From: a virus
Reading direction: 5' to 3' (one strand)
IMG/VR virus record: IMGVR_UViG_3300006751_000032
Coordinates: 1 to 40,272 of that record
Length of the DNA stretch: 40,272 bases
In this document: piece by piece, positions 22,096 to 35,806 of the stretch
Position numbering within the stretch: position 1 is the stretch's first letter
Layout: each line of letters starts with the position of its first letter
Translations under genes and position numbers: made by a program
Notes under the pieces: generated by a model
What the model was told of the DNA's origin: nothing
Databases searched by the model: none
Seen by the model: only the letters and a program-made list of their open reading frames with translations

Positions 22096-22101
22096 TAGTA
22101 T
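22079..22101 (+). promoter_or_regulatory. Hairpin masking the next start codon
   Basis: Perfect 8-bp stem ATACTACT (22079-22086) / AGTAGTAT (22094-22101) with a seven-base loop. It covers the stop of the oxygenase gene and two bases of the ATG at 22100, as expected for translational coupling. Confidence 0.6.
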
Positions 22102-23326
22102 GGCAAAAATAAATAACATATCAGTATCAGAAGCTGTATTTACAAAAATGCAGGAGCGAGGAACTGCATTTATTTTACAAAGAGCGTTTAAAGATAATAA
22201 GAAATTTAAAAAGGCTGAAGATATTATTGAAGATAAAGTTACTAAAGATGGCTTAGAAAAAATTTTTACTTTAAATTCTAAAAAATTATTTCATTTTGAA
22301 ACATTAAATCCAAAAACACCTGAAGGTAAATGGTTAACTACTTTTTACTTACAACAAAAGAAAATGCTTGATGAATTTTCTGATTCTAAATTTACAGTTT
22401 TCAACCGTGATGGTGGGTTTATGCAATTTATTAATGATTTAATTAAAACTAAATTTAATATACCAAAAAAGGATGCTTGGAATCCAGCAGATATTTGGTT
22501 GATAAAACAAAAGGATGTCTTTAGAAAAAAAATACAAAAAGAATTAGATGGTGCTAGTGGTACTCAAACTATAAGAGAATTAAATGCTATAATGAGAAGT
22601 ATGTTTAAAAAACGTGAGGTTGTAGGTATATCATTAAAACTTATTACTGGCGCTCAAGCTAAATATGAAGAAGTAAATGTTGATGAAAAGTTTTTTGATA
22701 AAATAGAAACTAAAGAAGGTGAATATAATTTTAAATTAGGTCAGGTTGTATTAAAATTAGATTTAAATCCTAGAAAAACATCCTTTCTAACAAAAGATTC
22801 AAACATTGTCCTTTGGGATAGAGATAATAAAGAAGTAGCGAAATATCAATTAAAAGGTAATACTACTTCCAGATTATCAAATTTAGTATTTGAACCTGTA
22901 ATGAGGGGAGCAGCTGCTAGATTAGGTAAGGCACCGTTAGGATTAGTAGAAAAATTAGCACTTATGTATGATAAAAAATTGTTTAATTCTACAACAAAAC
23001 AACATCAATCCTATCCTATGAATTTAAAAGAATTTCATAAAAGACGAATTGAATATGGTAGTATGTTTGATAGATTGAATAAAAATAAACTTGTTAAAGG
23101 CATTGGTGTTAAGAGTAAAAACGAATTTTTAGATAATATGGTAAAGGTATTTAAAGGTAAGGAATCTCATATTGCAAATATTAAGTTAATGCAGATGTAT
23201 TTTATTGATAAAGTATTGCAATTAAGAGATAAAAAACGAAATGAATTTTTAACAGACTTACTTTTTATATCTCAAAAGAAAGGTAGACAAGTATATGATT
23301 TTGGACCTTTCGGCAAATTATATTAA
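22100..23326 (+). CDS. Large unknown protein with PD-(D/E)xK nuclease-like motif
   Basis: 408 residues. Seen: AWNPADIWLIKQKDV (D131), ELNAIMRSMF, then VVGISLKL (S178-L-K180) followed by acidic residues. The order PxD(I), about 49 residues, SxK resembles the catalytic core of PD-(D/E)xK enzymes such as restriction endonucleases. The rest (200-408) is charged with no recognised domain. Family-level assignment is inference; related large proteins in marine T4-like phages are unannotated. No Shine-Dalgarno; start probably opened by ribosomes finishing the upstream gene. Last gene before a late promoter. Confidence 0.65.
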   Translation: MAKINNISVSEAVFTKMQERGTAFILQRAFKDNKKFKKAEDIIEDKVTKDGLEKIFTLNSKKLFHFETLNPKTPEGKWLTTFYLQQKKMLDEFSDSKFTVFNRDGGFMQFINDLIKTKFNIPKKDAWNPADIWLIKQKDVFRKKIQKELDGASGTQTIRELNAIMRSMFKKREVVGISLKLITGAQAKYEEVNVDEKFFDKIETKEGEYNFKLGQVVLKLDLNPRKTSFLTKDSNIVLWDRDNKEVAKYQLKGNTTSRLSNLVFEPVMRGAAARLGKAPLGLVEKLALMYDKKLFNSTTKQHQSYPMNLKEFHKRRIEYGSMFDRLNKNKLVKGIGVKSKNEFLDNMVKVFKGKESHIANIKLMQMYFIDKVLQLRDKKRNEFLTDLLFISQKKGRQVYDFGPFGKLY

Positions 23327-23327
23327 T

Positions 23328-23336
23328 TATAAATAT
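23328..23336 (+). promoter_or_regulatory. T4-type late promoter of the cargo operon
   Basis: TATAAATAT, 60 bases before the ATG at 23395. No other promoter is obvious until 34103, so it may serve about 10.8 kb. Confidence 0.7.
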
Positions 23337-23394
23337 ATGTGTTGATAAATTGATGGATGAGTGATTTTTTGTTAATGGAATTATTGGGAGATAA

Positions 23395-24618
23395 ATGCAA
23401 AGTTTTAAACAATATTTGTCCGAAGCTAGGAACACACACCTAGAACATTTAGAGGACGATATAATCAATAACGGATACGAAGGTGGCTTAAATGCTATCC
23501 AATTCTTAACATCATTAAGAAATATGATGGTAGGAGAGTCAGGTCGTAAAGTTAATGTATCTACAAAGTGGGATGGAGCTCCTGCTATAATCTGTGGTAT
23601 TAATCCAGAAAACGGTCGTTTTTTTGTTGCCACAAAATCACTTTTCAATGTAACTCCAAAAATCAATTATACAAATTCAGATATAAGAAGAAATCACGCA
23701 GGTGCTCTTGTGGATAAACTAGAGGTATGTTTAAAGTATCTTAAAAAATTGAATATTAGAGGAGTTGTTCAAGGAGATTTACTTTTTACGCCTAAAGAAA
23801 TTAAGTCAGCTTCTATAAGAGGAGAAAAACATATTGCATTTAGACCAAATACAATTACATATGCAGTACCAGAGGATAGTGATTTAGCAAAAAGAATTTT
23901 AAAAGCAAAAATAGGTATTATATTTCATACAACATATTCAGGACGAACAATAGATAAGTTAAAAGCAGGTTTTGGAGTTAGTATTAATTCGTTTGCTAAA
24001 ACTTCAGATGTATTTTTTGATAATGCTAGTTATAGAGATAATAGTGGTGTTGCTACATTTACTAAAGGAGAAAATAATACTTTTACAAGTATATTGAGAA
24101 TGGCAATAGGGTCAATTAAAAAAGGTAAAAGAATTTTAAATTTATTAAGAAGACAAACAAATTTATTATCTGTTGGTGCTAGATTAAAAATATTCTTTAA
24201 TGATTATGTTAAAAAAGGACAATCTTTTCCAAGCACACAAAAAATTAATAATGATTTTAGAAAATATTATGCAAGTGTTTTAGATGATGAAGTTTCAAAA
24301 AGAAAAACACCTGCAGCTAAAAAAAGATATGAAACAATTAGAGATGAAGGTTTAAAATTTATAGACAGATATGGTGATGAAATTTATTTTGCGATTGCAA
24401 GTTATTTAAGTTTAACAAGAGCTAAAAATTTTTTAGTAAATAAAATGAATCAAGTTAAATCTATTGGAACATTTATACAAACTGATAAGGGATGGAGAGT
24501 AACTAATCCTGAAGGTTTTGTTGCTGTAGATAGAATGGGGAATGCTGTAAAACTTGTGGACAGATTAGAGTTTAGCACAGCAAACTTTACATTAGCAAAG
24601 AATTGGATTAAAGGATGA
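23395..24618 (+). CDS. Ligase-like nucleotidyltransferase with capsid-targeting-like N-terminus
   Basis: 407 residues; GGGAG precedes the ATG. Seen: N-terminus MQSFKQYLSEA, like the head-targeting peptides of T4 internal proteins; KWDGAPAI (K58) as nucleotidyltransferase motif I (KxDG); VVQGDLLF (126-131) in the place of motif III; PEGFVAVD (E373) as motif IV and AVKLVD (K386) as motif V. This motif set is that of ATP-dependent DNA/RNA ligases and capping enzymes, with a long insertion between III and IV. Inference: a divergent ligase or nucleotidyltransferase packaged in the virion. Catalysis is unproven; motif III has Asp where Glu is usual. Confidence 0.65.
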   Translation: MQSFKQYLSEARNTHLEHLEDDIINNGYEGGLNAIQFLTSLRNMMVGESGRKVNVSTKWDGAPAIICGINPENGRFFVATKSLFNVTPKINYTNSDIRRNHAGALVDKLEVCLKYLKKLNIRGVVQGDLLFTPKEIKSASIRGEKHIAFRPNTITYAVPEDSDLAKRILKAKIGIIFHTTYSGRTIDKLKAGFGVSINSFAKTSDVFFDNASYRDNSGVATFTKGENNTFTSILRMAIGSIKKGKRILNLLRRQTNLLSVGARLKIFFNDYVKKGQSFPSTQKINNDFRKYYASVLDDEVSKRKTPAAKKRYETIRDEGLKFIDRYGDEIYFAIASYLSLTRAKNFLVNKMNQVKSIGTFIQTDKGWRVTNPEGFVAVDRMGNAVKLVDRLEFSTANFTLAKNWIKG

Positions 24619-25301
24619 CAGCAGTAGCAAGTTTTGCACAACACATAACTGAAGGCGTTTATGATAAAGGAATATTTAAAGCTTTCTTCCTTGCAGGTGG
24701 ACCTGCGTCAGGAAAATCGTTTGTTTCTGCTAGAGCATTTGCTGGTTCTGGATTGAAAGTTGTAAATTCAGATAAAAAATTTGAAGCCGATTTAAAGAAA
24801 ACAAATTTATCATTAAGTATGCCTGAACACGAAAAATATTTTAGAGATAAAATAAGAGCTGGTGCAAAAGCAGTAACAGCAACTGCATTAGGCTCTTATG
24901 TTCAAGGAAGATTAGGATTAGTTATTGATAGTACAGCAAGAGATTATGATTCTATTGCTAGACAATATCAGATGTTAACTTTGTTAGGATATGATTGTTA
25001 TATGATATTTGTCCAAACACCTTTACAAGTTGCTTTAGAGCGACAAAAACAAAGAGAAAGACAAATGGCAGATTATATTTTAACAACTTCTTGGAAACAA
25101 ACACAAAGTAATAAACCTAAATATAAAAGATTGTTTGGTTCTAATTATAGTGAAGTTGAAAATAACAAATCAAATTTAGAATTAATAACAATAACTATGA
25201 ATAAAGTGGCAAGACAAGTAACAGCATTATTAAATGCACCAATTAAAAGTTTTACAGCCAGAAAATGGATTGTAAGTAGATTAAAGGAGAAACGTAGATG
25301 A
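24615..25301 (+). CDS. P-loop kinase (zeta-toxin / polynucleotide-kinase-like)
   Basis: 228 residues, ATGA overlap with the ligase-like gene. Seen: N-terminal SFAQHITEGVYD, a targeting-like motif; Walker A GGPASGKS (28-35); VVNSDKKFE; GLVIDSTARDYDSIARQYQMLTLLGYD and the arginine-rich lid LERQKQRERQM. This arrangement is that of zeta-toxin and T4 polynucleotide kinase type phosphotransferases. Coupled to the ligase-like gene, so the pair could heal and seal nucleic-acid ends, as T4 Pnkp and Rnl do; that is inference. Alternatives: nucleotide or sugar kinase, toxin-like kinase. Confidence 0.75.
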   Translation: MTAVASFAQHITEGVYDKGIFKAFFLAGGPASGKSFVSARAFAGSGLKVVNSDKKFEADLKKTNLSLSMPEHEKYFRDKIRAGAKAVTATALGSYVQGRLGLVIDSTARDYDSIARQYQMLTLLGYDCYMIFVQTPLQVALERQKQRERQMADYILTTSWKQTQSNKPKYKRLFGSNYSEVENNKSNLELITITMNKVARQVTALLNAPIKSFTARKWIVSRLKEKRR

Positions 25302-25765
25302 AAATATCAGATAGTACAGCAATTTCTATGCCTATGCGAAATTTATTATCCATCCTAGCAGCTGTAGGTATAGGAGTGTGGGCTTATTTTGGGGTGATGG
25401 AGAGATTAAATAATTTAGAAACAAAAGCTACACTTGCAGAAAAAGATTTAACTAGTGAAGTGCAAAGAATTGATAAAGATATAGATTCATTGGTTACAGG
25501 TGATATTGCACAAAATAATGAATTTAGGATCAAATGGCCAAGGGGGGATTTAGGTTCTCCGCCTGCTGATTCTGAACAATTTATGCTTATAGAATTTCTT
25601 TCAGGACAAGTGGAAAGTCTTACGAAGCAACTTGAAGGTATGATGAACAATAAGGTAAACATTGAAAGGTTGCAGACGGATATGGAGAAGTCTTTGGAAG
25701 ATATTGAGAAATTAAAGGACAAGATTAGAGAAACCAATACTGGTTTTACTACGGAGGGGAATTAA
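25298..25765 (+). CDS. Membrane-anchored coiled-coil protein
   Basis: 155 residues, overlapping the kinase gene by four bases, with AAGGAG upstream. Seen: MKISDSTAISMPMRNLL, one membrane helix (about 14-32, LLSILAAVGIGVWAYFGVM), a coiled coil (35-65), a short RIKWPRGDLGSPPADSEQF linker and a second coiled coil (90-148). Proteins with the same opening occur in marine T4-like phages next to cargo-type genes. Function unknown. The layout would suit an envelope-spanning or virion-attached protein. Confidence 0.75.
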   Translation: MKISDSTAISMPMRNLLSILAAVGIGVWAYFGVMERLNNLETKATLAEKDLTSEVQRIDKDIDSLVTGDIAQNNEFRIKWPRGDLGSPPADSEQFMLIEFLSGQVESLTKQLEGMMNNKVNIERLQTDMEKSLEDIEKLKDKIRETNTGFTTEGN

Positions 25766-26065
25766 ATGGACGCAGCTACTTTAGTTACCATCATAACAAT
25801 GTTTATTGTAACTGATACATCAAGCGAATTTGTTAAGTATGATGGTTTAATGAGCTGTTTGAAAGATAAAAGAAAGATTGAAAAATTAAAAGATGGTCGT
25901 AGAGTAATCTGTGGTCCATCTATGGCAGAAATTGACGCAGAAGGTAATATTATCAGTATTAAAAACAAAATGCCAGACCAATCTGGTAGTTTAAAACTAG
26001 GTGGTACAGCGAAGTCTTTAACAGAAAAGAAAAAAGAAAAAAAGACTAAAGTATTAACGCAATAG
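25766..26065 (+). CDS. Small membrane-associated protein with CLxxKRxxEK motif
   Basis: 99 residues, abutting the upstream stop. Seen: a hydrophobic start (AATLVTIITMFIVTD, residues 3-17), then SCLKDKRKIEKLKDGRRVICG and a lysine-rich tail. The CLxxKRxxEK segment recurs in the gene at 27129 (DCLKTKREVEK), followed in both by a second cysteine. The two related genes flank the amino-acid-binding lipoprotein. The hydrophobic N-terminus could be an uncleaved anchor or signal. Function unknown. Confidence 0.7.
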   Translation: MDAATLVTIITMFIVTDTSSEFVKYDGLMSCLKDKRKIEKLKDGRRVICGPSMAEIDAEGNIISIKNKMPDQSGSLKLGGTAKSLTEKKKEKKTKVLTQ

Positions 26066-26085
26066 GCCTAAATAGGATAGATGAT

Positions 26086-27120
26086 ATGAAAAAAATATTA
26101 ATGAGTTTATTAGTTGCTTTATTTTTAGTTGGTTGTAATACAACAAAGAGTGTTAAAATAGAACAAGAAGTCGGTCTTTTAAAAACCGTACAAGAAAGAG
26201 GTTATGTTATTTGTGGAGTTAATGCAGGTCTACCAGGATTTTCTGCTCAAGATGAGAACGGAAACTGGAGTGGTTTAGATGTAGATTTCTGTAAAGCAGT
26301 TGCCGCTGCTATATTTGGTGATTCAAGTAAAGTAGAATTTATAGGATTAAATGCTAGTCAAAGATTTCCAACATTAGCGTCAGGTAATATTGATGTACTT
26401 GCAAGAAATACTACTTGGACAATCAGTAGGGATGTAAACTTAATGTTTGAATTTGCTGGTGTCAATTACTATGACGGTCAAGGATTTTTAATACCAACAG
26501 ATTTAGATATTAAGAGTGCAACAGAATTAGATGGTGCGTATGTATGTATTACAAAAGAAACAACATCTGAATTAAATTTAAACGATTATTTTGCAGAAAA
26601 TAATATGGCATATCAACCAATATATGTTGAAGGCAATAAAGACGCAAAGGCAAAATTATTTAATGGCGAGTGTGATGTATTCACAACAGACGCTTCAGGA
26701 TTAGCGTCAGCGAGAGCTGGTGCAGAAGACCCTAGTAAGTGGATGGTATTACCAGAAATTATATCAAAAGAACCATTAGGTCCACTTGTAAGACAAGGCG
26801 ACCAAGAGTGGGAAGATGTAGTTAGATGGACACACTTCATTATGGTAAATGCCGAAGAAGCAGGTATCACAATGTATAATGTAGATTTAATGTTAACTTC
26901 AAAAAATAAAGAAGTTAAAAGAATATTAGGTGTGGAAGGTTATATCGGTCCAATGTTAGGACTTGGTATGAAATTTGGTTATAACATTATCAAACAAGTT
27001 GGTAATTATGGAGAGTCATTTGAAAGAAATGTGGGACCAAATACACCACTTGCTTTAGAAAGAGGATTAAATAATCTTTGGAAAAACGGTGGCGTAATGT
27101 ATGTGCCACCAATTAGGTAA
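26086..27120 (+). CDS. ABC-type amino-acid-binding lipoprotein
   Basis: 344 residues. Seen: lipoprotein signal with lipobox L-V-G-C (Cys17); then a complete substrate-binding protein: VQERGYVICGVNAGLPGFSAQD, GLDVDFCKAVAAAIFG, FPTLASGNIDVLARNTTWT, and GVMYVPPIR at the end. This is the pattern of general L-amino-acid-binding proteins of the AapJ/BztA/YhdW group, abundant in SAR11. Those are normally soluble periplasmic proteins; the lipobox is unusual. No permease or ATPase gene accompanies it. Inference: captured from a host and adapted as an auxiliary metabolic gene, perhaps feeding the host transporter during infection or altering the cell surface. Confidence 0.93.
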   Translation: MKKILMSLLVALFLVGCNTTKSVKIEQEVGLLKTVQERGYVICGVNAGLPGFSAQDENGNWSGLDVDFCKAVAAAIFGDSSKVEFIGLNASQRFPTLASGNIDVLARNTTWTISRDVNLMFEFAGVNYYDGQGFLIPTDLDIKSATELDGAYVCITKETTSELNLNDYFAENNMAYQPIYVEGNKDAKAKLFNGECDVFTTDASGLASARAGAEDPSKWMVLPEIISKEPLGPLVRQGDQEWEDVVRWTHFIMVNAEEAGITMYNVDLMLTSKNKEVKRILGVEGYIGPMLGLGMKFGYNIIKQVGNYGESFERNVGPNTPLALERGLNNLWKNGGVMYVPPIR

Positions 27121-27128
27121 GGAGAAAT

Positions 27129-27611
27129 ATGTTTAAAAAATTATGTGATAAAATAGGATTTAAAAATGGTGGTATTAAAGAGTTGGCAACAATACTAGGT
27201 GCTCTATTCTTAATCGCTATAATATTTGGTGTAGTATTGCATAGTACAAGAGCAAATGCAGATTGTACAGGTTGCGGAGATGATGGACACCAAATTTGTC
27301 CAGTAGAAGGTGACCACGAACACAAAAAACCAGAAGTAGTTTTTGCAGTATGTGTCTTTGCAGATGGTACATTAATTGACCATAAAGGTGCTAACTCAAT
27401 GTCCGATTGCTTAAAGACTAAAAGAGAAGTTGAAAAGGCTTGGAGAAATAGAGCAGACGAAACAGATAGTGTAGAAATAAATGGTATTACTTACAAGATA
27501 GATGGTGAGTCATTAGCATTTATGTGTGATTTAGTGGACGCAAGAGTACATCATTATAATGATGGTACTTGGGAAATAGTTAAGATATTAGGCAAACATA
27601 AAAAGGACTAA
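27129..27611 (+). CDS. Cysteine-rich periplasmic/membrane protein
   Basis: 160 residues, AAGGAG upstream. Seen: an N-terminal membrane helix (about 19-38, ELATILGALFLIAIIFGVVLH), ending RANADC, which may be a signal-peptidase site; then DCTGCGDDGHQIC and HEH, a possible metal-binding cluster; then SMSDCLKTKREVEK and FMCDLVDA. The latter motif is shared with the gene at 25766. Probably exposed on the periplasmic side. Function unknown; positioned directly after the binding lipoprotein, 8 bases away. Confidence 0.72.
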   Translation: MFKKLCDKIGFKNGGIKELATILGALFLIAIIFGVVLHSTRANADCTGCGDDGHQICPVEGDHEHKKPEVVFAVCVFADGTLIDHKGANSMSDCLKTKREVEKAWRNRADETDSVEINGITYKIDGESLAFMCDLVDARVHHYNDGTWEIVKILGKHKKD

Positions 27612-27613
27612 CA

Positions 27614-27760
27614 ATGTTAAAAGAAATAAAAAGATGGTGTATTGAAGTTTCAAAAGCACTTTGTAGTGAAACGGTCAGTACAGCAGGAACCATTTGTGAT
27701 AAAACAAAGAAAGCAAATGCTGACTTTGTTAAAGCAATAATGGATGGTATTTACAGATAA
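27614..27760 (+). CDS. Small protein, unknown (48 aa)
   Basis: 48 residues, two bases after the upstream stop and overlapping the next ATG by one base (taATG). Helical and polar, with two cysteines (RWCIEV, ALCSE) and a third (TICDK). Begins MLKEIKRW, similar to the MLKRFKEH start of the next gene. No membrane segment. No family recognised. Confidence 0.65.
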   Translation: MLKEIKRWCIEVSKALCSETVSTAGTICDKTKKANADFVKAIMDGIYR

Positions 27761-30213
27761 TGTTAAAAAGGTTTAAGGAACATTTTAAGGAATCAATAAT
27801 AGACATACCTAGAAATACGTATGCTAAGCCTGTATTTGATAATGCAGATACAGATAATCCTAAACTTAAGCCTTCTGTGAGAAAACAATTACTAGACGGA
27901 ATTAAACAGTTTGAAAAATTTGGAGAAATAGTTAACACTACACTAATCGGTTCTATATTAACAAAACAATATAGAGAGGACGCTGATTTAGATGTAACTA
28001 TCTTATTTAAAATTCCTGGTACAAAAGCTGAACAGGAAAAAGTACACACAAAGATAAGAGAGTTCCAGTGGACTGCTAATGGTAAAAAGGTAGGCCTTAG
28101 CAATCATATTATAAACTATTTTTCTATCATAGATCCTGCCGTATTTAATAAGAACAGAAAGATGGCTGATGGTACTTTCGATATAGACAAAAACGAGTTT
28201 ATTCGAAAACCAGAACCAGGTACTTTCAGTTCCGAAAAATACGTTGCGGATTTTCAGAAACGTGTTTCTGAAATAGATGTTGTTAAAGGTGAACTCGTAA
28301 GAGATATGATTGATTATGAGGAACTAAAAAATTTATCTGCTGATGATGTAGAAAATTTAAGTACAGTAGTTTCAAAAAAGTTAGATGAAATTAAAGCTTC
28401 TATTAACACATTAATTGATATGGGGGATAAAGTTATGCAGGACCGAAAGGATGCTTTCGATTCTATAATGTCTCCCGATGAAATCAGAAAATTTGGTGAG
28501 AAGAATCGTCTTCCGAAAAATGTGATTTATAAAATGTTAGAAAAGTATCATTATCTCAAATTTTACAAAACTTTGGTAGAGATAATGGAAGATGGTAAAA
28601 TCACACCAGAAGAGCTGAAATCATTATCAAAAATAAAAGAGGCCAGAGGTAGACATATAGCGTTTACCTTTGGCCGATTTAATCCGCCTACAATAGGACA
28701 CGAAAAATTATTACAAAAATTGTTATCTGTAAGAGCAGATGACCACAAAATTATTTTAAGTCAGTCAGAGGATTCAAATAAGAACCCTTTGAAGTTAAGA
28801 GATAAAGTAGCAGCTATAAAAAGGATGTTTCCTAGATACGCTAGACATTTGGCTGCAAGTAAATCAAATATAATTATTGATATAGTAACTGAATTTTATA
28901 AAAAGAAATATACAGAATTGTCAATGGTTGTTGGAAGTGATAGAGTTAGTGAATTTAGAACACTATTAAAAAAATATAATGATGTAAAAAGCAGACACGG
29001 ATACTATAATTTTGATAGTATTAATATTGTTTCTGCTGGCGAAAGAGATCCAGACGCTGAAGGTGCTCAAGGTATGAGTGCAAGTAAAATGAGAGCGGCT
29101 GTAAAAGCAAATGATTTTAAAACATTTAAAAAAGGATTACCTTTAACATTTGGAAGGTCTAAAGACGCCGAAGCATTATTTAAACAAACTAGAAAAGGAA
29201 TGCATTTAGCTGCAAGCTATGATCCTTCCTTAGTAGAAAAGGTAAAAGATTTACCAAGATTTCAAGTATGGGAAAAAGGAAATGATAAGAAAGATTTTAG
29301 AGTTATTTCTGCTAGAGATGAGGACCATGTGAAAAAACAATTAAGTCATGTTAAAAAAGAATTAATAATTAAAAAATTAAATGCAGGTTTTGATAGCGGC
29401 CTTCCATCAATGGCAGGTGTGCTACGATTTAAACCATTTATAACTGCTTCAACGAAAAAGGAATTAAACAATATGGTATTAAGAGATAAGTATATTACGG
29501 AACATTTATATGATGTAGGAGATATTGTAGATGATGTTAGTAATAATGTAACTGGTATTATTGTTAGACGAGGTACCAATTACGTGACTTTAGAAAATGC
29601 AGATGGTAAATTACATAAGGCGTGGTTGTATGATATAATTGAAACGCCAGTATTTTCTGAAGATTTAGAAAAGAAATCAAAAGAAATTAAACAAGGTAAA
29701 ACAAAATATGACCAGAGAGATGGCATAGGAAATTTACCAGATGGTATACCAGAGAAAAAAGAATCGTATGATATGGGACACGATTGGGCAAAATATACTT
29801 CATCTATTACCCCAGGAGAAAAACATTATGATCCTAAAGCTCAAGGTAAAACATATAAACCTAGTACGCCTGAAGATAATTTAATTAATGTAAATGCTAG
29901 TAAAAATGTTGATTTAAAAGACATTGAGGAATGGGTAAATAACGAAGATACAATAGATAAATATAAGGAACGTTATGGGGAAGAGTGGAAAGTAAAATTA
30001 GACGAAGTTTATAACAAGATGTTTAACAAAGTGGTTGACACTAGCGACAATATGGTTGAAGGAAGAATGAAAGATATTGCTATAGATTTGAAACATTTAA
30101 GTGATGATGAGTTTAAAAAGAAATATAGCAAGTCTAAAGAAGAATTGAGAAAATCATTGGGTGGAACATCTGAAGTTAAAACGTTTAAGGAGTTTGCAAA
30201 TGCAAAAGTTTAA
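27760..30213 (+). CDS. Multidomain nucleotidyltransferase (MNT plus NMNAT-like domains)
   Basis: 817 residues. Seen: N-terminus MLKRFKEHFKES, targeting-like; a minimal nucleotidyltransferase fold with GS (64-65) and DLD (76-78), the hGSx(10)DhD signature; a helical stretch (150-290); a cytidylyltransferase/NMN-adenylyltransferase domain with FGRFNPPTIGHEK (T311-IGH314) and GMSASKMR (438-445) in the place of ISSTxxR; then an SH3-like repeat VTGIIVRRGTNYVTLE and a polar tail ending KTFKEFANAK. Two different nucleotidyltransferases in one chain is unusual. Inference: virion cargo acting on nucleotides, NAD or RNA ends after injection. Contains one copy of the 29-bp repeat. Confidence 0.82.
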   Translation: MLKRFKEHFKESIIDIPRNTYAKPVFDNADTDNPKLKPSVRKQLLDGIKQFEKFGEIVNTTLIGSILTKQYREDADLDVTILFKIPGTKAEQEKVHTKIREFQWTANGKKVGLSNHIINYFSIIDPAVFNKNRKMADGTFDIDKNEFIRKPEPGTFSSEKYVADFQKRVSEIDVVKGELVRDMIDYEELKNLSADDVENLSTVVSKKLDEIKASINTLIDMGDKVMQDRKDAFDSIMSPDEIRKFGEKNRLPKNVIYKMLEKYHYLKFYKTLVEIMEDGKITPEELKSLSKIKEARGRHIAFTFGRFNPPTIGHEKLLQKLLSVRADDHKIILSQSEDSNKNPLKLRDKVAAIKRMFPRYARHLAASKSNIIIDIVTEFYKKKYTELSMVVGSDRVSEFRTLLKKYNDVKSRHGYYNFDSINIVSAGERDPDAEGAQGMSASKMRAAVKANDFKTFKKGLPLTFGRSKDAEALFKQTRKGMHLAASYDPSLVEKVKDLPRFQVWEKGNDKKDFRVISARDEDHVKKQLSHVKKELIIKKLNAGFDSGLPSMAGVLRFKPFITASTKKELNNMVLRDKYITEHLYDVGDIVDDVSNNVTGIIVRRGTNYVTLENADGKLHKAWLYDIIETPVFSEDLEKKSKEIKQGKTKYDQRDGIGNLPDGIPEKKESYDMGHDWAKYTSSITPGEKHYDPKAQGKTYKPSTPEDNLINVNASKNVDLKDIEEWVNNEDTIDKYKERYGEEWKVKLDEVYNKMFNKVVDTSDNMVEGRMKDIAIDLKHLSDDEFKKKYSKSKEELRKSLGGTSEVKTFKEFANAKV
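28815..28843 (+). repeat. 29-bp exact repeat, copy 2
   Basis: Identical to 6704-6732; encodes IKRMFPRYA within the adenylyltransferase-like domain, where the residues fit the domain, so this is probably the original copy. Confidence 0.9.
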
Positions 30214-33200
30214 ACAAGTAAGAGAAGGTGCTGAAGATTTACCTCAAGCAAAAGCTACAGGTAAACAACACAGAGCAGCTCAACTAGCGGTAAGTATAAG
30301 AGATAAAGAAACTAGTATGAGGGATGTTGATCCTTCCCAAAAAACTAGAATTGCAATTGGTAAAGCAGATGTAGCTCATATGAAATTAAAATTAGGAGAT
30401 TTAAAAAATAAAATTAGATTGTCAAGGTTGAGTGCTGAAAATGAACCTGAAACAGATGACAAAGGTAAACCTAATAAGAAAAAAGAAATTAAAGAAGATG
30501 AGCGACTTTCTCAATTAGGAAGAATAAAGAAAGCGATTGATATTGCTAAAACATATGCAGGTAATATGACTCGTGCTACAAAAGAAATTGAAAAAATAGC
30601 AAAAGGTTTATCACAAGTAAAAGATGTTGAAACTGCTTTAATGAGAGCTAATGAAGAAACAGATCCAAGAAAACCTGAAGACAAAGATAAACCGAAAGAT
30701 AAATTAAAATTAAAAGATTTTTCAAAAAGACTTGCTAGTTTTAAAGATAAATTTTATAAAGATTTAAAACCAAAAGGTTTATTTGCTTCTATAGGTAATA
30801 ATGATTTTCAACTTAAATATGGTGCAGTTAAAGAAGGTGTTATACCTAATACACAATCAGCAAAACAAAAAGCATATAACAAATTTATTAAACAAGGAAA
30901 ACATCCAGATACAGCTGCTGAAATGGTCGCTAATTTAGTGGCAGAAGATAGTAATGTAAAATATAAAGTAGTTGACGCTAAAACTAACAAACCAATTCCA
31001 GATTTAAAAGATAAATCAGTTGGATATAATACTGCTTTACATATGAAAAAACAAAAAGGCGATGGTTACAAAGTTGTACCAGTTGACGTTTATGGTAATA
31101 TAGATGAAGCAAACATAGTTTTTAGAGCAAAAGCAACAGATGGTGGTTATTTTCTAGTATTAAAGCGTGATACTTCTGGTATGAGTGGTAGCCAAGATAA
31201 ATTTTTAATGCGTCATTTGAAAAACGGTAAAGTTAAAGAATTAGGTTCTCATCCATCGTTAGATGGTGCAAAAACTTTTGGTAAGAATAGGGGTATTATT
31301 GAAGAAGTTGAATTAGAAGAACATATAGAATTAGATGAAGAAATATTAAATGAGTTAGGTTCAAAAATTCCCATTTTGATAGGTAAAGTAAAAGAACATA
31401 TGAAGATGTATAAAGAAATGATTGACCGTGTATTAAAATTACAATATGGCAAAAAGTTTACAGATAGTATGCTTACAATAACAGCACAGACAGCTTCAAA
31501 AAGTGTGCCTGCAGTAGTAAGAGAATTGAGTGCTAGAGACCTTTTTAAAGAACAAGTAGAATTAGAAGAAGGTTTAAAAATGGCTAATTTAGTTGGTCAA
31601 AGTATTGCACATTTAGGATTGTATGTAGAATTTGCTGAAGATGTAAAGAAAGAATATTTTAAACCCAAATCGCAAGTATCTTTGTTCACAAAAGCAAAAG
31701 CAGACCAAGTTTTAAAAAGTGTTCCTAAATTAATAAAAGAATTGAGAAAACCAGGTATATGGAGTGAACAAGTAGAAGAATATTTGGGAAAAAGTACAAC
31801 AAGGTCTGACCCAGGAAATATGTTATGGTATGAAGTTGAAATTACAAAAGGTGGTCAATATAAAAAGATATCTCAGGAAGAATTGCCAAAATGGAAATCT
31901 AAAGGATGGAAAGTTGCTTTTGATCCTTCAAAGGGAAAATTTCCTAAAGGTTATTTTACAAAAGAAAGTAATGACATGGGTTTTTGGGTAAAATTTGCCA
32001 AGAAAAAAGAAAGTGGAATTGTTGCTGCTTGGTATAGAAGTAAAGAGGATGCTGAAAAGGCATTAGCAAGTTTAAAAAAAGATGGTCTTAATGGTATTAT
32101 ATCAAAAGGTCGTATGGATGAAGAAGCTAGAGACCTTAAATTTGGTAATATAACTGTTATAACAATTACTAAAGATGGTAAACGAAAAGAAATTGAAAAG
32201 AAAGATTTACAAAGATGGAAAGATGATGGTTGGAAACTTGCTGAAGATATAAAGAAAGAAGATTTTAAAACTTTTAGAGAAGGTCTACAACCAGGATTTG
32301 CAGTAAGATATTTAGACCCTAAAAATGGAAAAAGATTTGCTGTTGCATATAAAATAAAAAAAGACGCAGATGATAAAGCTGCTCAATTAAAAAAAGATGG
32401 TGCAAAAGATATTTCAATAACTAAACATAGTTTAAATTTTAAAGAACATAATTTAAAAACTGTCCATGAAGTATCTCCACCAGGTTGGGAAGGCTCAGTT
32501 AGAGCGATGAAAAAACATCCAGAACTAGGTGGTGAAAAGGGAGATAAAAATATTTATGCTCTGTCTTGGTATTTAAAAAACAAAGGGGCAAAACCACATT
32601 ACAAAGATAAAGGTGGTAAACCTGTAAAGAAAGACAAATATAAAAATGAAGAAAAAATTTTAGATGAATCAGCATTAAAAGATATAGAAGATTATAATGC
32701 TAAGAAAAAGGTATTACAGACTATTGAACTTGATCCTAAACAAATGAAGGATCCTCAAATGAGAACTGCTGTAATAATAAGAAAGAAAAATTTAGAAAAA
32801 GAATTACAGGCTTTAAAAGCAAAAGGAACACCAATTGCTGCTGAAGTAGAACCTGGCACAGAAAAAAGAGAAGTGGCTTCTTTTTCTAAAGTTAATGAAG
32901 ATAATATACATTTTGGCATATCAGGACTTGAAACTGATAGGCAACAATTAGAGGAGAAAAAAATGGAAAATAAGTATATGGAAACCAGAACAGGCAGCCT
33001 GGAAGATAGTATTACTAAAATACGTGTTGAGCAGCCTACAGTTAAAAAAGAAGAACCAAATATAAAATTAGAACCAAAATCTTATTTAGAAACTAAAGAA
33101 GGTTCACTTGCTGACGCAGCTGCTAAAGTAGTAAGTGAAGATACTAATATTTACATCAATGGTTCTGAACCTGCTAAAGTTGAAGATGGTAAAGGTTTAA

Positions 33201-33574
33201 ATAATGTACAACCTAAACCATTAAAGAAAAAAGCAATTGCTAAACCATTAGCAAAAAAAGAAGGCGTAACTCCTGAAAAACAAAAAGAGATGGATAAATT
33301 AATGAAAGCGTTTTTAGCAAAAGGTGGTAAAGTTCAAAAATTAAAACCTGGTATTGCTAAAGGAGCTGGTCATATGGATAGACGAGGTCCTTACAAAGCA
33401 GATATACTAAAAAATAAAAAAGAAAATAAATCTTTTAAATCTTTAAGAGCTTCTTCAAATCAAAGAGAAGTTGAAAAAGATTTAGTTGCTTCAACTTCTG
33501 GTGGAAAAGGTAAGACATTAACAGGTAAAAAACCTGCAAAAATTGATACTGAACCTAAAGTACATCCAATATAA
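30200..33574 (+). CDS. Very large repeat-containing virion-type protein
   Basis: 1124 residues from ATG 30200, chosen because AAGGAG lies 8-13 bases upstream; overlaps the preceding gene by 14 bases. Seen: N-terminus MQKFKQVREG, targeting-like; charged helical region; an A-B-A-B tandem array (units at about 31827, 31978, 32148 and 32290) where A is ITKxGxxKxI...WKxxGWKxA and B is an alpha/beta unit ending LKKDG; HEVSPPGWEGSVRAMKKHPEL followed by ALSWYLKNKGAKPH, a motif known at C-termini of phage proteins; two ETxxGSL units (32976, 33082); a lysine-rich end. No enzyme motif recognised. Probably a head-interior or structural protein assembled from recurring phage modules. Confidence 0.75.
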   Translation: MQKFKQVREGAEDLPQAKATGKQHRAAQLAVSIRDKETSMRDVDPSQKTRIAIGKADVAHMKLKLGDLKNKIRLSRLSAENEPETDDKGKPNKKKEIKEDERLSQLGRIKKAIDIAKTYAGNMTRATKEIEKIAKGLSQVKDVETALMRANEETDPRKPEDKDKPKDKLKLKDFSKRLASFKDKFYKDLKPKGLFASIGNNDFQLKYGAVKEGVIPNTQSAKQKAYNKFIKQGKHPDTAAEMVANLVAEDSNVKYKVVDAKTNKPIPDLKDKSVGYNTALHMKKQKGDGYKVVPVDVYGNIDEANIVFRAKATDGGYFLVLKRDTSGMSGSQDKFLMRHLKNGKVKELGSHPSLDGAKTFGKNRGIIEEVELEEHIELDEEILNELGSKIPILIGKVKEHMKMYKEMIDRVLKLQYGKKFTDSMLTITAQTASKSVPAVVRELSARDLFKEQVELEEGLKMANLVGQSIAHLGLYVEFAEDVKKEYFKPKSQVSLFTKAKADQVLKSVPKLIKELRKPGIWSEQVEEYLGKSTTRSDPGNMLWYEVEITKGGQYKKISQEELPKWKSKGWKVAFDPSKGKFPKGYFTKESNDMGFWVKFAKKKESGIVAAWYRSKEDAEKALASLKKDGLNGIISKGRMDEEARDLKFGNITVITITKDGKRKEIEKKDLQRWKDDGWKLAEDIKKEDFKTFREGLQPGFAVRYLDPKNGKRFAVAYKIKKDADDKAAQLKKDGAKDISITKHSLNFKEHNLKTVHEVSPPGWEGSVRAMKKHPELGGEKGDKNIYALSWYLKNKGAKPHYKDKGGKPVKKDKYKNEEKILDESALKDIEDYNAKKKVLQTIELDPKQMKDPQMRTAVIIRKKNLEKELQALKAKGTPIAAEVEPGTEKREVASFSKVNEDNIHFGISGLETDRQQLEEKKMENKYMETRTGSLEDSITKIRVEQPTVKKEEPNIKLEPKSYLETKEGSLADAAAKVVSEDTNIYINGSEPAKVEDGKGLNNVQPKPLKKKAIAKPLAKKEGVTPEKQKEMDKLMKAFLAKGGKVQKLKPGIAKGAGHMDRRGPYKADILKNKKENKSFKSLRASSNQREVEKDLVASTSGGKGKTLTGKKPAKIDTEPKVHPI

Positions 33575-33592
33575 TAAAAGGTAATCATCCAT

Positions 33593-34099
33593 ATGGCTAA
33601 ATTACCTTTAATATATTGTGATATGGATGGTGTTCTAGCAGATTTTAAAACTGCAGCTTCCAAAACAACAGGTATGTCTATTAACAAATGGATGAATATA
33701 CCATCAGGTCAAGGTAAGTGGGACGCAATCAGAAATAATAAACGATTTTGGTATGACCTTCCTTGGCAATCAGGTGGAAAACAGTTGTGGTCTTTCATTT
33801 CTAAATACAATCCCAGTATATTAAGTGCATATGTAGCTAAAGATTTTGATCCAAATTGTATACCAGGTAAGACACATTGGGCTAAAACAAAATTAGGTCT
33901 TACTACACGAAGAATTAATTTAGTGTTAAGAAGTGAGAAAAAACTTTTTGCTAAAATACATTCTCGTAATGGTGAGAAAGTTATACTAATAGATGACTAT
34001 AAACCAAATGTAGATGAATTTACACGTGTTGGTGGTATAGGAATTTATCATACAAACACTAATAATACAATATCTAAACTGAAAAGGTTAGGATTTTAG
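33593..34099 (+). CDS. HAD-family phosphatase, 5'-nucleotidase-like
   Basis: 168 residues. Seen: catalytic DMDGVLADF (D10, D12), SAY (78-80) as motif II, a lysine around residue 93 or 98, and ILIDDYKPNV (D134, D135) as motif IV. This fits the 5'(3')-deoxyribonucleotidase branch of HAD hydrolases. Family knowledge: removes phosphate from nucleotides; the phosphatase half of T4 polynucleotide kinase is also a HAD domain. Last gene before the next late promoter, so it may complete an end-processing set with the kinase and ligase-like genes; that link is inferred. Confidence 0.82.
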   Translation: MAKLPLIYCDMDGVLADFKTAASKTTGMSINKWMNIPSGQGKWDAIRNNKRFWYDLPWQSGGKQLWSFISKYNPSILSAYVAKDFDPNCIPGKTHWAKTKLGLTTRRINLVLRSEKKLFAKIHSRNGEKVILIDDYKPNVDEFTRVGGIGIYHTNTNNTISKLKRLGF

Positions 34100-35356: not shown

Positions 35357-35806
35357 ATGAAGACATTTAAACAACATATAAACGAAGGCAAAGGTTATGT
35401 TGGTGACGCTCAAGGTGTTGGAACAAACACTATGGAAAATCCAATAGAGGATGGTTCAGTAGGCGTACACAATATACATCTGCCTGAAATAGTAAAAAGA
35501 GTAAGTGCTTTTGTTGGCTCTATTGCTGATAGAGAGTATTTAAATCCACAAGGTGCTATAAATCAATTAAGAGATTCTATTAGCAAAATTGGAATTGGTT
35601 TTAAAGATGAAATTAAATTGGGTGAAGATAAAACAGGAACATTTGAAACTGGTCTAACTCAATTTGGCGGTCGTTTCGGTAAAGATACTGATGGCTCTGA
35701 TATAAATGATGACGGGATATCTCATAAAGGTAAAGAGTTAAAATTAAAAGGGAAATACGAAACATTATCAAACGGCGCTGTTAAAGTTTATGCAGAGCTT
35801 GCTTAA
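35357..35806 (+). CDS. Virion-type protein with capsid-targeting-like N-terminus
   Basis: 149 residues; GGAAGAG precedes the ATG. Seen: MKTFKQHINEGKGYV, the best match in the window to the T4 internal-protein leader (MKTYQEFIAEA); then LPEIVKRVSAFVGSIADREYLNPQGAINQLRDSISKIGIGF, a helical segment I recall from structural proteins of marine T4-like phages, and a Gly/Asp-rich end. Predicted cleavage after INE. Function unknown; proposed to enter the prohead. Confidence 0.72.
   Translation: MKTFKQHINEGKGYVGDAQGVGTNTMENPIEDGSVGVHNIHLPEIVKRVSAFVGSIADREYLNPQGAINQLRDSISKIGIGFKDEIKLGEDKTGTFETGLTQFGGRFGKDTDGSDINDDGISHKGKELKLKGKYETLSNGAVKVYAELA

Follow-up and report, generated by a model that had tools for sequence, protein, structure and literature searches.

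In phage T4, a capsid-targeting sequence brings foreign proteins into the head core, and the internal proteins IPI and Alt, once injected, target host defences or RNA polymerase (PMC9958956). Known phage RNA-repair sets comprise a ligase, a polynucleotide kinase, a HAD protein and a pol-beta-type protein, RlaP (PMC7824862). An NMNAT-like protein has been found in virions of the cyanophages S-SM1 (PMC3037559), S-SZBM1 (PMC9146016), S-SCSM1 (PMC9602691) and S-CREM2 (PMC10665884). Here we analyse IMG/VR record IMGVR_UViG_3300006751_000032 (all 40,272 nucleotides, hereafter the window), a 40-kb fragment of a marine T4-like phage (Kyanoviridae, pelagiphage-type), and in it a group of genes around a ligase-like gene of the family DUF6267. 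An original prediction, made from the letters alone, had proposed a virion-borne module for the healing and sealing of nucleic-acid ends, and all the features that it named are present where it placed them. Our preferred reading, held with moderate confidence, is a late-expressed, capsid-packaged enzyme cassette for the repair of nucleic acid, probably RNA.

Results

The motifs by which the ligase-like protein had been recognized, KWDG, PEGFVA and AVKL, are confirmed as K58WDG, PE373GFVA and AVK386L. They are not a matter of chance, since K58, D60, G61, E373, G374 and K386 are kept in 98–100% of 126 aligned DUF6267 homologues, an alignment that takes in a compact form without most of a helical insertion; K81, Q126, D128, H178 and Y181 are likewise essentially invariant. 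The superfamily motifs I (KxDG), III, IV (EG) and V (lysine) occur in order, as K58xDG, QGD128, E373G and K386, and the order and spacing of the conserved residues approximate those of motifs I, Ia, III, IIIa, IV and V of ATP-dependent ligases, judged from the T4 Rnl1 and Rnl2 sequences and general knowledge of the family.

The structure model of the window protein had a predicted local distance difference test (pLDDT) score of 82. Since a roughly 130-residue helical insertion blurred the Foldseek search with this full-length model, a compact homologue was modelled (pLDDT 91.4). All but one (49) of the 50 PDB entries that match the latter best are capping enzymes or ligases acting on DNA, RNA or tRNA, and in a viral structure library RNA ligase 2 and DNA ligases rank after DUF6267's own family. 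The models thus support the nucleotidyltransferase fold foreseen for this protein. A sequence search of DUF6267 against solved structures (PDB) gave no match. Judging from motifs and models, we place DUF6267 in the lysine-adenylating ligase/capping superfamily, probably outside the known ligase families.

Of 50,697 phage records, 466 contain DUF6267, almost all of them from marine T4-like phages; among viral contigs, at least 600 stretches carry it. The family carries no function annotation, and a literature search on it found no paper. The organisms with matches are mostly Synechococcus phages; searches with T4 Rnl1 and Rnl2 gave no Synechococcus phages among the ten commonest organisms. Because these lists differ, DUF6267 may stand in for the standard ligases in Synechococcus phages.

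Directly following is the kinase gene, which overlaps the ligase-like gene by 4 bases as first described. Its P-loop is present and, together with D44 and R134/R138/R140 (alignment numbering), conserved. The nearest solved relatives are zeta toxin (2e-5) and the kinase of C. thermocellum Pnkp (1e-3), which we take the PDB entries matched to be; seryl-tRNA(Sec) kinase (PSTK) is also among the relatives. The product of 27760–30213 was correctly read as a minimal nucleotidyltransferase of pol-beta type (G-S...D74xD76) followed by an NMNAT-like domain with GRFNPPTIGH (Pfam CTP_transf_like). The Polbeta/NTP_transf_2 matches of the former are weak (2e-3), and its assignment to RlaP is tentative at most. 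Profile searches of the PDB with the NMNAT-like, nuclease and pol-beta families yielded nothing useful.

Among the 84 DUF6267 loci with at least 3 kb downstream, 72 have the NMNAT-like gene and 35 the kinase. The nuclease-like gene lies directly upstream of DUF6267 in 52 of 140 loci, and the linkage of the HAD gene is weaker. Six fusion proteins join the parts (L numbers denote loci): DUF6267–NMNAT (L075), NMNAT–kinase (L077, L046, L047 and L048) and kinase–polbeta–NMNAT (L190). In the viral structure library, an S-PM2 protein matching DUF6267 goes by the name of cytidyltransferase-like domain protein and has the length that such a fusion would need. The kinase and ligase-like genes therefore co-occur in relatives, and synteny and fusion bear out the proposed linkage of the ligase-like, kinase and nucleotidyltransferase–NMNAT parts. 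Because the parts are syntenic and fused, DUF6267, the NMNAT-like and pol-beta-type domains and the AAA_33 kinase appear to be one functional module.

Several proteins of the region had been credited with targeting-like N-termini. This holds for the products starting at 23395, 24615, 27760 and 35357 and for a 1124-aa protein, and fails for the nuclease-like and HAD proteins of the window. One peptide type opens the otherwise unrelated ligase-like, kinase and polbeta–NMNAT proteins and, in relatives, HAD proteins (Table 1); the ligase-like tag resembles the start of T4 ipII. The tagged window proteins thus have the N-terminal peptide and the Glu site of T4-type internal proteins. Some untagged cyanophage DUF6267 proteins begin exactly where the tag ends (MAKNTHLEHLED), and untagged homologues open at M(A)KNTHLEHLED. 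In a DUF6267 clade formed by L172–L184 and similar loci, a tag-like start (MFSFKGFITKEKNT) has its glutamate displaced or missing; such proteins may be packaged uncut or be cut one residue further on. A search for a prohead protease in the 40-kb record gave no match, the record being only a fragment and a control search also giving none.

The description of the region as late holds in part: the module genes have replication genes around them, yet the ligase-like gene is preceded, at 23328, by a T4-type late promoter element, TATAAATA. This element lies within 120 nt upstream of 67 DUF6267 genes among the 103 that are tagged or nearly so, where composition-matched simulations gave 3.4 on average and 9 at most, and upstream of 0 of 71 untagged ones (expected 0.4). 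In the window it occurs five times in the intergenic 6% (expected 0.67, p about 0.001). The element at 23328 and the counts in tagged relatives agree with the late expression of T4-type internal proteins.

Virion proteomics is available for relatives. In S-SZBM1, the NMNAT-like protein is both tagged (MRFRQFIIE/A) and detected in the virion (PMC9146016). In S-CREM2, a tag matrix scored at least 8 bits in 6 of 52 virion proteins versus 3 of 167 others (p=0.0065), a fair test in that the matrix was trained only on other phages (marine loci). A narrow tag regular expression failed in S-CREM2, as it demanded certain residues after the cut; a looser one was picked after seeing the data. Taken together, the capsid-targeting peptide, the late promoter and the relatives' proteomics support delivery with the DNA, as had been suggested, and lend strong inferential support to a virion-borne module; for DUF6267 itself, presence in the virion is predicted.

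Table 1. Features of the module and its surroundings in the window (a slash marks the predicted cut)
Position	Strand	Feature	Evidence or remark
22100..23326	+	phrog_1462, PD-(D/E)XK-like nuclease candidate	has D131 and SLK180, lacks the tag here
23328..23335	+	T4-type late promoter element TATAAATA	ligase-like gene starts some 60 bp downstream
23395..23424	+	Capsid-targeting peptide MQSFKQYLSE/A at the N-terminus of DUF6267	predicted cut after E10; resembles T4 ipII MKTYQEFIAE/A
23395..24618	+	Ligase-like, divergent covalent nucleotidyltransferase, DUF6267 (PF19782)	Pfam 2e-124, conservation, fold; motifs K58xDG, K81, QGD128, H178, E373G, K386
24615..25301	+	AAA_33/zeta/Pnkp-type P-loop kinase with targeting peptide SFAQHITE/G	AAA_33 1.7e-11
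27760..28626	+	Targeting peptide MLKRFKEHFKE/S and pol-beta-type nucleotidyltransferase domain	GS...DxD
28651..29208	+	NMNAT/cytidylyltransferase-like (HIGH-type) domain	relatives in cyanophage virions
30200..33574	+	1124-aa K/E-rich protein with targeting peptide MQKFKQVRE/G	possible core or carrier protein
33593..34099	+	HAD phosphatase, 5'-3' deoxyribonucleotidase-type	DMDGV, S, K and DD motifs intact; lacks the tag here, several relatives have it (MRDYKEFYRE/A)
5647, 7184, 34103, 39410	+	Further intergenic TATAAATA elements	

The nuclease-like protein has the expected D131...SLK180 pattern, as W-N-P-x-D131 and S178-L179-K180. D131, SLK and N193 are 98–100% conserved among 18–41 divergent relatives, and the pattern is PD-(D/E)XK-like with S replacing the acidic residue. 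Most relatives are untagged, like the window protein; positional counterparts in HTVC008M and Melnitz carry the tag. The gene is loosely linked, and its supposed part in a repair pathway found no support. Neither did a 3'-phosphatase role for the HAD protein, whose best match is the 5'-3' deoxyribonucleotidase family, nor its delivery in the head of this phage. Being untagged here and about 9 kb downstream, the HAD protein was rejected as a firm member of the kit.

The listed open reading frame of the 1124-aa protein starts with GTG at 30161; the true start is probably the tagged ATG at 30200. Internal FxxFxE-like peptides at residues 207, 689 and 895 suggest several protease cuts. Further downstream, a tagged 149-aa protein of no known family (35357–35806, MKTFKQHINE/GKG) is probably also injected. 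Within the module, 26086–27120 encodes a lipoprotein-type amino-acid-binding protein (SBP_bac_3, 3e-14), found also in the related loci L001–L004 and L034. Upstream of the module genes lie those for DNA polymerase, UvsX, clamp loader, helicase and a CobS-type ATPase, and the gene order of the window is that of Pelagibacter phage HTVC008M (Kyanoviridae). In S-CREM2 (L089–L092; gp6, gp12, gp13, gp14, gp15 and gp136), four enzymes of the virion carry the tag: the NMNAT-like protein, the S-adenosylmethionine hydrolase, the phage-encoded Cas9-like nuclease and the APH-like kinase, of which the last three are probably injected too.

Discussion

We prefer the RNA-repair reading because the ligase-like protein, the kinase, the pol-beta domain and, in relatives, a tagged HAD protein match the known phage RNA-repair sets. 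In such a cassette, the capsid-targeting peptide would draw the ligase-like, kinase and polbeta–NMNAT proteins into the prohead core, a gp21-type prohead protease would cut the tag after Glu, and the enzymes would leave the head with the DNA. DUF6267 would pass through a lysine-AMP intermediate (AMP, adenosine monophosphate) on K58 and ligate nucleic-acid ends, 5'-OH ends would receive a phosphate from the kinase, and missing nucleotides would be put back by the pol-beta domain, a task suggested for RlaP in other RNA-repair sets of phages; the HAD phosphatase, tagged in some relatives, could remove 3'-phosphates. RNA would be the likeliest substrate, above all tRNA that suicide nucleases of the host have cleaved. 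We infer the cleavage, ejection, catalysis and substrate in this scheme. 'End healing and sealing' is a plausible, if unproven, description; what found no support in the original prediction is a broken nucleic-acid end as the substrate, and with it the choice between RNA and DNA. More tentatively, we suggest that marine T4-like phages might inject a prefabricated repair complex around DUF6267, ready before phage transcription, and that untagged relatives make the enzyme after infection.

Several observations weigh against the repair cassette. No single structural match of the compact DUF6267 model is significant (Foldseek E 0.12–1.6 among the top 50, none at or below 0.001), so the superfamily assignment depends on how consistent the list is, together with the motifs. 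Comparison by hhalign with Rnl1 gave E values of 0.01–0.09, at motifs IV–V only, which is not significant given that the negative controls (the kinase, NMNAT-like, pol-beta, HAD and nuclease families) reach E=0.07; the two families are in register there, PEGFVAVDRMGNAVKL with IEGYVAVMKDGSHFKI. With Rnl2, neither shallow nor deep profiles gave a match. DUF6267 as a member of the Rnl1 or Rnl2 family was rejected, the profile comparison being within control noise. Bacterial Pnkp is no closer to the kinase than zeta toxin is, so that a specifically Pnkp-like enzyme was not borne out, and the kinase is missing from many DUF6267 loci. It is not obvious at which step of end sealing an NMNAT-like enzyme would act, and the HAD and nuclease-like proteins of the window lack the tag. 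DUF6267 of S-SZBM1 is not listed in the virion; it is untagged, as the packaging model predicts.

The constancy of the NMNAT-like gene, the commonest partner of DUF6267, lends some weight to a counter-defence centred on nicotinamide adenine dinucleotide (NAD+), in which the NMNAT-like domain and the kinase would act like NadR and rebuild NAD+ early, and DUF6267 would use or transfer AMP from NAD+ with no end sealing. NMNAT–kinase fusions exist, the NadR NMNAT model is matched weakly (4e-7 in L190, the NadR model being matched over its NMNAT half only), and NAD+ regulation is what the published authors propose. We nevertheless consider it unlikely: the kinase matches AAA_33, zeta, PSTK and Pnkp and not the NadR-type ribosylnicotinamide kinase domain (AAA_28 reached only E=0.08, in one relative), and the lysine-AMP ligase fold and the pol-beta domain would be left without a role. 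Somewhat less probable again is repair of DNA ends, whereby the nuclease-like, ligase-like and kinase proteins would fix breaks made in the incoming genome by restriction or other DNA nucleases. Delivery with the DNA would suit immediate repair, many top PDB matches are DNA ligases, and the nuclease-like gene is often directly upstream; yet its family is mostly untagged, and no OB-fold or DNA-binding domain was identified.

DUF6267 and the NMNAT-like domain could also serve takeover by covalent nucleotidylation of host RNA or proteins, leaving cap-like or AMP tags, much as T4 Alt does by ADP-ribosylation. The fold is common to capping guanylyltransferases, and Alt is itself a packaged modifying enzyme, but the pol-beta and kinase partners suit repair better and no target of such modification is known, which makes this proposal improbable. 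Finally, the proteins might be filler of the head core with decayed enzyme folds, given that core proteins bear the same tag and that a long K/E-rich tagged protein is encoded in the same region. This we regard as very improbable, as the catalytic motifs are 98–100% invariant down to about 28% identity, including in untagged members not expected in the head.

With DUF6267 placed in the ligase/capping superfamily, a single lysine mutant would allow a direct test of its chemistry, in a family present in hundreds of sequenced marine phages; marine T4-like phages are among the most abundant viruses on Earth. If the preferred reading of a packaged repair cassette is true, a capsid-delivered kit explains the puzzling NMNAT-like virion protein of cyanophages and shows phages acting before transcription against suicide nucleases, and the combination of targeting peptide and late promoter finds injected proteins across marine T4-like phages. 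We judge as new the ligase-like family within a known superfamily and a delivery mode that, for such enzymes, has no description in the literature searched, where a search for virion-borne ligase/kinase sets found none.

Among known systems, the T4 internal proteins (IPI–III and Alt) are alike in the N-terminal peptide, some 10 residues long with E as the last, the late promoter and, in relatives, a T4-like head with a gp21-type protease; no T4 internal protein resembles the cargo here, a multi-enzyme nucleotidyltransferase/kinase module. T4 PseT (Pnkp) and Rnl1 likewise bring ligase, P-loop kinase and HAD activities into one phage region, and motifs IV–V align with Rnl1. They differ in showing no homology by profile comparison; here the kinase and HAD proteins are separate, pol-beta and NMNAT-like domains are added, and the proteins are predicted to be packaged. 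Compared with the RlaP-containing sets (PMC7824862), DUF6267 is another ligase-like family and the pol-beta domain has no clear assignment to RlaP; the accessible part of that source does not describe packaging. NadR resembles some relatives in uniting an NMNAT-like domain and a P-loop kinase in one protein, but the kinase here is of the AAA_33/zeta/Pnkp type. The 'cytidylyltransferase/NMNAT' of cyanophage virions (T4-GC190; S-SM1, S-SZBM1, S-SCSM1 and S-CREM2) has been reported in papers whose accessible parts mention neither the tag nor the ligase fold of DUF6267 nor the fusions; it belongs to the same NMNAT-like family, and in several of these phages its gene lies next to DUF6267.

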